From: Halorientalis litorea
Lineage (GTDB): Archaea > Halobacteriota > Halobacteria > Halobacteriales > Haloarculaceae
Direction of reading: 5' to 3'
Assembly: GCF_023028225.1 (NCBI RefSeq)
Contig: NZ_CP095482.1
Location: forward strand, 744,001 to 808,000
Length of the DNA: 64,000 nucleotides
In this document: positions 13,294-60,630 of the stretch, piece by piece
How the letters are laid out: each line of letters opens with the position of its first letter
Position numbering within the stretch: position 1 is the stretch's first letter
The notes under the pieces: generated by a model
Told to the model about the DNA's origin: nothing
The model's input: the letters and a program-made list of their open reading frames with translations, nothing else
Database searches by the model: none
Translations under genes and position numbers: made by a program

Positions 13294-13394
13294 CGCCGGT
13301 GGTTGTCGCTGGCCGGACAAAACAGTTCGGCGGGCGGCGATGCGGAGGCGGTTAGGGGTGCGGCGGACGGTGCTGAGCGGTGTGGTCCACCATC

Positions 13395-13449
13395 CGCGCG
13401 CCGGCGGCGCGCGGTTCACTGCTGGCGAGGCCGGTGGCCGAGCCAGCAG
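13395..13449. repeat. GC-rich hairpins beside element A
   Basis: A GCGCGCC/GGCGCGC palindrome is followed by CTGCTGGC (13419-13426) paired with GCCAGCAG (13442-13449). The second hairpin is closely related to the one after ilvD (CCGCTGGC/GCCAGCGG), tying the two loci together. It may also end the transcript of the phosphate operon. Confidence 0.6.
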
Positions 13450-13453
13450 GGAG

Positions 13454-13519
13454 TTTTATACTAAATTTTGCAAGGAGTGGTTCGCGCGGAGCGCGAACCC
13501 GACGCAGTGAAATTTAGTA
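13454..13519 (-). repeat. palindromic gene-end element, copy A (after phoU)
   Basis: Outer inverted repeat TACTAAATTT (13459-13468) and AAATTTAGTA (13510-13519) encloses a perfect 9-bp hairpin, GGTTCGCGC-GGA-GCGCGAACC (13479-13499). The flanks TTTTGCAAGGAGTG and CCGACGCAGTGAAATTTA recur at 29.6 kb, and a 30-bp core recurs exactly at 60491-60520. The outer repeat overlaps the TAA stop codon of the phoU gene. Confidence 0.85.
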
Positions 13520-14239
13520 GATGAGGGCGTCGTCGTTCTCGACCATGTACAGCGTGCGCGCGGCGATGTTGACCGCGTGGTCGCCGACGCGTTCGAGGTC
13601 ACGAATCGTCAGCAGGAGGCGGGACACCTCGTTCATCAGTGCCTCGATGTCGTCGACGTCGCCGGGGTCCGCCCGACTGCTCTCGGGCGTGAGGTTGCTG
13701 TCGTCGTCCGGGTCGCCGAACTCCGTCTCGATGAGGTCGCGGACGACGACGTTCGAGGCGTCCTCACACCGGGCGTCGATGTCGTCGTCGCGGTCGGCGA
13801 TGGCGAAACACGCCTCCGGGTCCTGCTCCGCGTAGGCCGCCATCGCGTCCTCGACCATGTCGAGCGTCTCCTCGCCGATGGCGCGGATGTCCACGTCGGG
13901 GTAGAGGTCACGGGTGGCGTCGAGCGTGTACTCCCCGAGGTTGGTCGCGAGGTCAGCGATGCGTTCGAGGTCGGTGATGACCTTGAACGAGGCGGCGATA
14001 AAGCGGAGGTCACCCGCGACCGGTTGCTGGAGGGCGAAGAGGTCGATACAGTCCCGTTCGAGGTCTAGGTAGAGTTCGTTTATCTCGTGGTCGCCTTCGA
14101 TGACCTCCCAAGCGAGGTCCTCGTCTTTCGCTTCGAGGGCGTCCAGTCCCATGCGGAACCGTTCGAGAACGACTTCGCTCATGTAGAGGACGTCGTCCTG
14201 CAGAGATTCGAGTTGTTGTTGGTAGTCCTCTCGTGGCAT
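13514..14239 (-). CDS. phoU: PhoU-domain phosphate regulator, distal copy
   Basis: 241 residues from the ATG of MPREDYQQ; 25 in-frame codons upstream are unlikely. Two PhoU three-helix bundles with the metal-binding ExxxD pattern (ELYLDLERDCIDLFALQQP). PhoU proteins couple the Pst transporter to phosphate signalling. It follows phoU2, 119 bp downstream, and may have its own promoter (AT-rich stretch about 14262-14270). Its last 72 bases are identical to the end of phoU2 and its stop lies inside a palindromic element. Confidence 0.85.
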   Translation of the reverse strand: MPREDYQQQLESLQDDVLYMSEVVLERFRMGLDALEAKDEDLAWEVIEGDHEINELYLDLERDCIDLFALQQPVAGDLRFIAASFKVITDLERIADLATNLGEYTLDATRDLYPDVDIRAIGEETLDMVEDAMAAYAEQDPEACFAIADRDDDIDARCEDASNVVVRDLIETEFGDPDDDSNLTPESSRADPGDVDDIEALMNEVSRLLLTIRDLERVGDHAVNIAARTLYMVENDDALIY

Positions 14240-29414: not shown

Positions 29415-29556
29415 CAGCCCCACGAACCCGCGCAAGCGGTTTTTGCTCCAGCTTTTTGGCCGAGCGGTTCGCGAGCGGCGTGAGCGAACCCGAGGCGAAA
29501 AAGGTGGATGTGGGACGTTCGTGCCGATTCTCGCCGAGAAGATTCTAGACGAGTAA
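29370..29556 (+). repeat. 45-bp exact duplication of the gene 3' end
   Basis: 29370-29414 (end of the cyclodeaminase-like gene with its TAA) and 29512-29556 are identical. The 97-bp spacer holds two T5 runs (29440-29444, 29453-29457), good archaeal terminators, and an inverted repeat GGTTCGC (29466-29472)/GCGAACC (29484-29490). The second copy is followed at once by palindromic element B. Confidence 0.95.
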
Positions 29557-29685
29557 ATTTTACTGCGTCGGGTGTCCTCGGGTGGCTTCGCCACCCTGCG
29601 GGTACAGCGTGGCGGCTTCGCCGCCACGTCGCCCGGTCGCGGGCGGCGGCCCGCGACCGCACTCCTCGCAAAATTTAGTATAAAA
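29554..29685 (+). repeat. palindromic gene-end element, copy B with three hairpins
   Basis: Outer TAAATTT (29554-29560) and AAATTTA (29671-29677). Flanks match copy A on the other strand: TAAATTTTACTGCGTCGG at the gene side, TCGCAAAATTTAGTATAAAA at the far side. Inside are three perfect hairpins: GGGTGGC-TTC-GCCACCC (29580-29596), CGTGGCGGC-TTC-GCCGCCACG (29608-29628) and an 11-bp stem at 29634-29659. The TAA of the duplicated gene end is part of the outer repeat. Confidence 0.9.
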
Positions 29686-50904: not shown

Positions 50905-52638
50905 ATGAGCCAGCAACACGACCAGCGACCGGAGTCCGGGAAACCCGACGACCTCCCGAGCAACGAGGTGACGGAGGGTCCCGACAAGGCCCCACACCGC
51001 GCGATGTTCCGCGCGATGGGCTACGACGACGAGGACCTCTCCTCGCCGATGGTCGGCGTCGCCAACCCCGCCGCGGACATCACGCCCTGTAACGTCCACC
51101 TCGACGACGTGGCAAATTCCGCCTACGAAGGCATCGACGAGGGCGCGGGGATGCCAATCGAGTTCGGGACCATCACTATCTCCGACGCCATCTCGATGGG
51201 TCACGAGGGCATGAAGGCCTCGCTGATCTCGCGGGAAGTCATCGCCGATTCAGTGGAACTCGTCGCCTTCGGCGAGCGCATGGACGGCCTCGTGACGATC
51301 GGCGGTTGTGACAAGAACATGCCGGGGATGATGATGGCGTCCATCCGCACGGACCTGCCCAGCGTCTTCCTCTACGGCGGGTCGATCATGCCCGGCGAAC
51401 ACGAGGGGCGGGAAATCACGATCCAGAACATGTTCGAGGGCGTCGGCGCGGTCGCCACCGGCGAGATGACCGAAGACGAACTCGACGAGATGGAGCGCAA
51501 CGCTTGTCCCGGCGCGGGGGCCTGTGGCGGGATGTTCACCGCCAACACGATGGCCTCCATCTCGGAAGCGCTGGGCTTTGCACCCCTCGGTTCGGCCTCG
51601 CCGCCCGCCGAGAACGAGAGTCGCTACGATGTCGCCCGCGAGGCTGGCGAACTCGCCGTCGAGGTCGTCCGCGAGCGCCGCAAGCCCTCCGATTTCCTCA
51701 CCCGGGAGTCCTTCGAGAACGCCATCGCCCTGCAGGTCGCGGTCGGTGGCTCGACCAACGCCGTCCTCCACCTGCTGGCGATGGCCGCCGAGGCGGGCAT
51801 CGACCTCGATATCGAGGACTTCAACCGAATCAGCCGTCAGACGCCGAAAATCGCCAACCTCCAGCCCGGCGGCGAGCGGGTGATGAACGACCTCCACGAG
51901 GTCGGTGGCGTCCCGGTCGTCCTCAAGGAACTGCTGGACGCCGGCCACCTCCACGGCGACGCTCTCACCGTGACGGGCAACACGCTCGGCGAGGAACTCG
52001 ACGCGTACGACCCGCCGGCCATCGCCGACCTCGACGCCGACTTCCTCCACACGGTCGCCGACCCCATCCACGAGCGGGGAGCCATCCGCATCCTCACGGG
52101 CAATCTCGCCCCCGAGGGTGCGGTCATCAAGATTACCGGCGAGGACCACCTCCACCACGAGGGACCGGTCCGCGTCTTCGAGGGCGAGGAGAACGCCATG
52201 CAGTACGTCCAGGAGGGCAACGTCGAGAGCGGCGACGTACTCTGCATCCGCAACGAGGGACCGCGCGGCGGCCCGGGGATGCGCGAGATGCTCGGCGTCA
52301 CCTCCGCCGTCGCCGGGCAGGGGCACGCCGAGGACGTGGCACTGTTCACCGACGGCCGCTTCTCGGGCGCGACGCGTGGCTTCTCCATCGGGCACGTCGC
52401 CCCCGAAGCCTTCGTCGGCGGCCCCATCGCGGCACTCGAAGACGGTGACACCATCACCATCGACATCGACGACTTGGAGATGTCTGTCGACCTCAGCGAG
52501 GCGGAGCTCGAAGAGCGCCTCGACGCCCGCGACCAACCCGAACCGAACTACACGAACGGCGTGCTGGCGAAGTACGGCCAGACGTTCGACTCCGCGGCCA
52601 ACGGCGCGGTGACCAATCCCGGCGCGAAACAGGACTAA
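50905..52638 (+). CDS. ilvD: dihydroxyacid dehydratase IlvD
   Basis: 577 residues from ATG 50905. Cluster-binding motifs [18 protein letters not shown] and [15 protein letters not shown] are present. It makes 2-oxo acids for valine, leucine and isoleucine with an iron-sulfur cluster. Its last 84 bases reappear 163 bp downstream with two changes. No other branched-chain gene is adjacent. Confidence 0.95.
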
Positions 52639-52646
52639 CTGGGGGA

Positions 52647-52680
52647 CCGCTGGCGAACGGCGTGAGCCAGCGGCCGTTTT
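52647..52680 (+). terminator. hairpin and T run after ilvD
   Basis: CCGCTGGC (52647-52654), 11-base loop, GCCAGCGG (52666-52673), then CCGTTTT. The same kind of hairpin stands beside element A (13419-13449). Confidence 0.6.
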
Positions 52681-52683
52681 GAT

Positions 52684-52800
52684 CCACCTTTTGCAAGGTT
52701 CACGAGACGCTTTACGTCTCGTTAGCAAACCAGAAATCGGAGATTTCTGGTGTGAGTGGGTCGTGACCAGCGGGAACGTCCCCGACGAAGTAAAAGGTGG
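52684..52800 (+). repeat. palindromic gene-end element, copy C
   Basis: Outer inverted repeat CCACCTTTT (52684-52692) and AAAAGGTGG (52792-52800). The left flank continues TTTTGCAAGG and the right flank is CCGACGAAGTAAAA, both shared with copies A and B. Inside are hairpins CGAGACG/CGTCTCG (52703-52721) and a 10-bp stem ACCAGAAATC/GATTTCTGGT (52729-52751). Here the element precedes the duplicated gene end, whereas it follows it at the other loci. Confidence 0.85.
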
Positions 52801-53046
52801 TACTGGCGTGCTGGCGAAGTACGGCCAGATGTTCGACTCTGCGGCCAACGGCGCGGTGACCAATCCCGGCGCGAAACAGGACTAACTGCCCCACTGGCAC
52901 AGTGAGCGCGGCGGTTTGCCAACGAGTTTCGGATGCGACGACAGGTCCAGTTACCCGATGGTACGAGCCAAGTAGCCAAGAGTACAAAAATAAGCTAGCC
53001 AGTTCGTGGTAAGTACAACAGCGACCGCACGTCAAGTTCCGCTGTC

Positions 53047-60394: not shown

Positions 60395-60630
60395 CCGCGC
60401 TCGCCCGGCGAGCGCGGTTCACTCCGACGAACGTAGTGAGTCGGAGGTCCCGCATACCGTGCGAACGGGCACGAAGTGCCCGTGAGCAAAGAGTGGTTCG
60501 CGCGGAGCGCGAACCCGACGAAGTACAAAGTGGAGTGGGACCGCCGCGAACTCCCGCGCTCGTTCGCGTTCTCCCACGTTTCGGCTCGCAACACTCAGTC
60601 GCGAAGCTCCCTCGGTTGCGTCGCGTGAAA
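60395..60630. repeat. hairpin cluster with palindromic gene-end element, copy D
   Basis: At least four hairpins: CGCGCTCGCC/GGCGAGCGCG, CGGGCAC/GTGCCCG, and GGTTCGCGC-GGA-GCGCGAACC (60495-60515). The last lies in a 30-bp block (60491-60520) identical to copy A, followed by AAGTACAAAGTGG. Bases 60534-60553 copy the tRNA-Pro 3' part. The cluster lies directly downstream of the tRNA gene. Confidence 0.8.

Follow-up and report, generated by a model that had tools for sequence, protein, structure and literature searches.

A non-coding mobile element of haloarchaea with long variable duplications of gene ends, likely a bidirectional terminator

Several sites in a 64,000-nucleotide stretch of the Halorientalis litorea genome (contig NZ_CP095482.1, positions 744,001 to 808,000; hereafter the window) carry the same short flanks around palindromes of differing sequence. 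The question raised by this locus is whether such sites are transcription terminators that never left their genes or copies of a unit that moves and, if it moves, how it is copied. A sequence-only reading of the window had listed four sites and regarded them as a mobile or actively copied unit and not as simple terminators. All four sites are real, and the flanks lie where that reading placed them: the right flank, CCGACGMAGTRAAA, matches exactly at 13499, 29558 (minus strand) and 52782 and with one mismatch at 60515, and the left flank, TTTTGCRAGG, matches at 13466, 29664 (minus strand) and 52689. A search with R1, a covariance model built for this analysis, revealed a fifth copy that had been missed, bringing the window total to five (Table 1). 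Both flanks had been ascribed to every site; copies A, B (B2 in the table) and C have them, and copy D has no left T-run, while the 30-bp core said to be common to copies A and D is indeed identical.

The flanked core described initially is only a part of the element, since two further hairpins are located on its TTTTGC side and the full unit is about 130-165 bp long. On the structured strand it reads 5'-(AGCATCCGC-hp3-GCGGTTCAC)-hp2-GTTTTT-nnn-arm-TTTTTGCRAGGAG-hp1-CCGACGMAGTAAAAA-arm', where hp1 to hp3 are hairpins and the outer arm is frequently CCACC/GGTGG or CTAAA/TTTAG. The core is thus preceded by a T-run, hp2 and often also hp3, the latter framed by CATCCGC..GCGGTTCAC, and the order hp3-hp2-T run-arm of copy A recurs in other copies.

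Table 1. Features of the element and of the adjoining gene ends in the window (E-values of the R1 model are rough)
Feature	Positions	Strand	Basis
Copy A, upstream hairpins hp3 and hp2, parts of the full-length unit	13393-13449	+	sequence
Copy A, hp3: CCGCGCGCC..GGCGCGCGG, then TTCAC	about 13393-13414	+	sequence
Copy A, hp2: CTGCTGGC..GCCAGCAG	about 13419-13449	+	sequence
Copy A, core: arm TACTAAA/TTTAGTA, TTTTGC..GTGAAA stem, G.A-rich internal loop	13454-13524	+	R1, 75.9 bits, E 8e-14
Copy A, core hairpin GGTTCGCGCGGAGCGCGAACC	13479-13499	+	sequence
TAA stop codon of phoU-like gene, within the constant arm of copy A	13514-13516	-	sequence
Left duplicate: final 45 bp of LOR/SDH-like gene, intact end including TAA	29370-29414	+	45/45 identical to 29512-29556
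Copy B1 (fifth copy), between the two 45-bp duplicates	29442-29513	+	R1, 42.9 bits, E 2e-6
Right duplicate: remnant of the LOR/SDH-like 45-bp gene end	29512-29556	+	repeat comparison
Copy B2 (copy B of the sequence-only reading), three hairpins within conserved flanks	29546-29685	-	flank matches; R1, E 2e-6
Left duplicate: final 84 bp of ilvD, intact gene, stop TAA 52636-52638	52558-52641	+	82/84 identical to 52805-52888
Copy C, upstream hp2: ACCGCTGGC..GCCAGCGGC	52646-52676	+	sequence
Copy C, core, three nested hairpins	52677-52807	+	flank matches; R1, E 1.6e-4
Right duplicate: ilvD 3'-end remnant	52805-52888	+	repeat comparison
Copy D, decayed or partial core, no left T-run, 30 bp identical to copy A	60486-60524	+	partial R1 match (model positions 17-55), E 4e-4

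Fifty-one copies from this genome, its congeners and named haloarchaea align well, and their cores fold so that an outer arm and a T4-5/A4-5 stem are followed by a conserved internal loop, rich in tandem G.A mismatches, and lastly by a variable hairpin that is nearly perfect. On the TTTTGC strand the arm leads into a T/A stem that ends with G-U and C-G pairs, followed by a 2x3 internal loop (RA versus GMA), a G-C pair, tandem G.A/A.G, a second G-C pair, one bulged base and the variable hairpin. Free RNA folding of copy A yields the same structure (-30.1 kcal/mol, z -5.8; other strand -26.1); in copies A and C it is the TTTTGC strand that folds better as RNA and keeps the G-U and tandem G.A pairs. 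The helices of the arm and hairpin covary strongly: shuffles give 68 +/- 5 cells with changes on both sides where the alignment has 163, and 76% of cells paired where it has 90.8%, and no slid pairing comes close. Since the pattern used for searching prescribed most letters of the flanks, the conservation of the flanks is partly by construction; internal-loop positions 19 and 56, which the pattern left free, are nevertheless linked (G-A 34, A-C 15, G-C 2, A-A 0), and both types are found with all main arm types, so the linkage is more than the descent of two subfamilies. Judged from the alignment, this covariation would suit a folded RNA and a folded single-stranded DNA alike and cannot distinguish them. 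A kink-turn was ruled out by hand for the internal loop, the G.A pairs of which lack an adjoining three-base bulge, and no Rfam family was matched at six loci, where the sole match up to E = 1 was a neighbouring tRNA.

The element is not confined to the window. Both flanks with a gap of up to 31 bases occur 5 times in the genome, compared to 0 for the reversed control pattern, and the right flank alone, with at most one mismatch, occurs 17 times (0 for its control); the flanks searched singly point to about 20 places and the covariance model to about 29 copies. The model also finds copies in 33 of 39 relatives, with a maximum of 47 per genome. All 45 double-flank matches among about 85,000 species genomes are haloarchaeal and belong to many genera, and in a sample of the phylum the element is present in 16/24 genomes of the same order and in 0/124 others. 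The family is therefore widespread in, and restricted to, haloarchaea. Viral contigs contained no exact double-flank match, and no description of the element was found in a search of papers, which most subscription journals lay outside.

Two findings had been named that would speak against a mobile unit, namely flanks that do not recur in the genome and orthologous sites that are never empty. The flanks recur, and relatives provide clean empty sites at three loci. At the hyuA/hyuB junction of this genome the unit comes with a duplication of 38 bp, which makes both genes whole again, and the two genes are uninterrupted in five relatives (G001, G003, G004, G006 and G025). The 3' end of ilvD, where window copy C resides, shows that independent insertions differ in repeat length: it is duplicated over 84 bp here, over 38 bp with a different copy in G005 and over about 32 bp in G003; the copies of G004 and G007 are diverged and lack a duplication, and no unit is present in G001, G002, G006 or in most of the family. 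The third locus is a Dph6-like gene, the end of which is clean in six congeners and is duplicated beside units in this genome and in G005. Direct repeats of the adjacent gene end, which had gone unseen beside copies B and C, flank 22 of the 109 tested copies, including those at 29.4 and 52.7 kb of the window, with a score reached by 0.3% of cross-pairings. They are 21-96 bp long, and in some the two duplicates are 100% identical, as over 61 bp at C1:957302 and over 45 bp in the window; repeats of 40-90 bp occur in other families as well. Because the duplication is usually a gene 3' end, the gene remains intact on one side and leaves a remnant on the other. Taken with the target-like duplications, the empty and filled orthologous sites support insertion of the element at new places, as initially proposed.

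Tandem arrays of gene end plus element exist in a Halobiforma and at loci L220, L240 and L292 and are explained by unequal crossing-over; tandem duplication as the sole origin of the repeats is ruled out by the empty hyuA/hyuB sites. The remaining 87 of 109 copies have no flanking repeat, so that insertion without duplication, or decay, has to be assumed for them. These could be old insertions, duplication-free insertions or vertically kept terminators, in shares that cannot be apportioned.

The two ends of the unit behave differently. At arm' (GGTGG or TTTAG) the end is constant, with 0-6 bases between it and the duplicate; the opposite, 5' end varies from AGCATCC before hp3 to a point inside hp2. 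Read by eye, the outer edge of the duplicate falls within a few bases of a stop codon about ten times, and about five times it coincides with a T-run terminator that was already there. With genes called around the copies by a simple codon-position score, about 16 of 19 independent cases have an intact gene that reads in the same direction as the structured strand, and the stop codon of the gene facing the constant end is 0-5 bases from the arm in 41/109 (copies without a repeat).

In Haloferax, T5C stops 95% of transcripts (PMC7237163). Each strand of the element has a T-run just past a stop codon, and together these features suggest that the element likely acts as a bidirectional transcription terminator. 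The view that the sites are not simple terminators is thus right as to mobility but overlooks that their position at stop codons and T-runs on both strands look like a haloarchaeal bidirectional terminator. As in the intergenic T-stretch terminators of haloarchaea (PMC7237163), T-runs follow stop codons and hairpins are nearby; unlike them, the element is dispersed in copies over the genome, has empty sites and contains an internal loop that is both conserved and specific. A settled copy would end transcription of both flanking genes, which may make many insertions tolerable or even useful. In all eight congeners and several other genera the phoU stop codon is directly trailed by a T-run/stem/A-run palindrome; only some of them have the G.A loop at this orthologous site, others showing an ordinary GC stem with an unrelated sequence, and in many families the site is bare. 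The architecture is thus kept while the hairpin is renewed, which fits a terminator under selection whose hairpin is turned over by template switching or gene conversion.

The joint reading that we find, on balance, somewhat probable is that of a non-coding haloarchaeal mobile element, likely a bidirectional terminator, spread by host template switching. During replication or repair a growing strand would switch onto a folded copy, copy it up to its constant end and go back to its original template 20-100 nt upstream, and this return would leave a long duplication of variable length. Switching driven by hairpins could also renew the hairpins, and no dedicated enzyme would be needed. Such host-driven copying, which we favour with low confidence, would account for the variable length of the duplications, the perfection of the hairpins and the lack of an enzyme, as well as for entry at an existing homologous T-run (locus L257). 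In its strict form, in which a terminator needing neither transposase nor reverse transcriptase moves solely because host polymerases switch templates where single-stranded DNA has folded, and in so doing duplicates gene ends and rebuilds its own hairpins, the proposal is tentative and rather doubtful. The constant end and the duplicate edges at stop codons and T-runs look more specific than what free template switching gives.

A protein that recognises the folded strand would explain why the G.A loop is strictly kept. A non-autonomous, MITE-like transposon moved in trans by an unrecognised transposase or integrase with long variable target duplications would have the constant 3' end with a short joint of 3-6 nt, the empty sites and the target-site-like duplications; we consider it unlikely. 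The duplications of MITEs are short and of a length fixed by the transposase, and their terminal repeats match a transposon. We know of no DNA transposase that fits duplications of 21-96 bp; moreover, the unit has a variable 5' end in place of a fixed terminal repeat, and neither a parent transposon nor a larger, coding version of the element was met in passing. The IS200-type Y1 transposase, tried as a candidate mover, was rejected: it is present in 23 of 39 genomes and not where copies are many, being absent from G001, G009, G018, G021 and G026, which hold 17-31 copies, so its presence does not track copy number.

Alternatively, the sites may be immobile, conserved bidirectional terminators that resemble each other through convergent selection and whose gene ends were independently duplicated in tandem. 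The stop-codon position, the same architecture at phoU across genera and the tandem arrays of gene end and element would all follow, and we regard this as improbable nonetheless: the hyuA/hyuB junction, uninterrupted in the relatives, had no terminator to duplicate, and the internal loop, with linked positions common to distant genera, is far more specific than termination requires. Least probable is a retroposon, the RNA of the structured strand being reverse transcribed into a nick by target priming, as in LINEs and SINEs; the constant 3' end, 5' truncations, variable duplications and better-folding TTTTGC strand agree with it, but reverse transcriptase RVT_1 (PF00078) was detected in 0/39 genomes, including those with 20-47 copies, while control genomes were positive as expected.

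In outcome the unit is most like a MITE or a SINE, and it is classed as neither; MITEs, PATE/IS605 remnants, SMRs, REPs and retroposons each fail a tested defining feature, and it is because of the long variable duplications that the element is set apart from the first four. With MITEs it has in common a short, non-autonomous nature, inverted arms and target duplications, yet its duplications of 21-96 bp differ per insertion and its arms flank the core while the 5' end of the unit varies. It resembles LINE/SINE retroposons in its constant 3' end, variable or truncated 5' end and variable target duplication and differs from them in that no reverse transcriptase was found in the 39 genomes. The SMRs of Haloquadratum walsbyi (PMC3119063) are likewise haloarchaeal, about 80-110 bp long, non-coding and enigmatic in their mobilisation; however, SMR-A and SMR-B make no target duplication and SMR-A targets PATE/IS605 palindromes (PMC3119063), whereas the element makes duplications of 21-96 bp and sits at gene ends. 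PATEs, also haloarchaeal and non-coding with palindromes close to their ends, derive from IS605 ends and make no duplication (PMC3119063), unlike the element, which the Y1 transposase does not track. REP/REPIN (GTAG) sequences and the CGTC-tagged REPs, the latter without a known transposase (PMC3733652), are repeated extragenic palindromes with one tagged end, and the complement strand of the element has CGTCGG before the hairpin. In contrast to REPs, which are bacterial repeats of 20-40 bp with short stems, the element has a 70-nt core and two hairpins, is found only in haloarchaea and duplicates gene ends; in contrast to the REPIN/RAYT system, it has neither a GTAG tag nor a tracking Y1 transposase. 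The resemblance of a unit adjoining a stop codon to integron attC sites is an analogy only.

Small palindromic elements such as SMRs and CGTC REPs have no known mover. The long, recent, 100%-identical duplications and the empty sites at the same genes make the mode of insertion of this element directly testable, perhaps in a genetically tractable haloarchaeon. A mobile repeat of this kind reshapes gene ends and terminators in an archaeal class and sometimes changes the last codons of proteins.

Several minor observations were made along the way. A cyclohydrolase-like gene was independently struck in two species, with a 61-bp duplication in G000 (L221) and a 27-bp one in G001 (L231), and its final protein codons are altered in one of the two. 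Locus L294 (G033:C1:466000-467600) contains a tandem repeat of about 200 bp with the element beside repeated tRNA-like 3' ends. Two adjacent phoU-like genes have 3' ends that are 91% identical over 100 bp (window 13517-13616 and a region about 845 bp downstream, locus L007), compared to about 72% for the genes overall. Tandem G.A mismatches together with GNA-like loops characterise single-stranded DNA hairpins of very high stability; hairpins with one-strand tandem G.A mismatches and such loops (GCGACCATCGGGAGC) were noticed at loci L212, L220, L240 and L258 and are many in these genomes, the pattern occurring once in the window. A separate hairpin module, CCAGAAATC..GATTTCTGGTGTG, at 52730-52755 of the window and at loci L120, L267 and L297, is nested in or adjoins the element in several congeners. 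Finally, copy D and the copy at C1:836262 (locus L010) have the extra hairpins CACGGGCACTTCGTGCCCG and GCACGGTATGCGGGACCT in common (window 60441-60490), so composite multi-hairpin versions spread, too.
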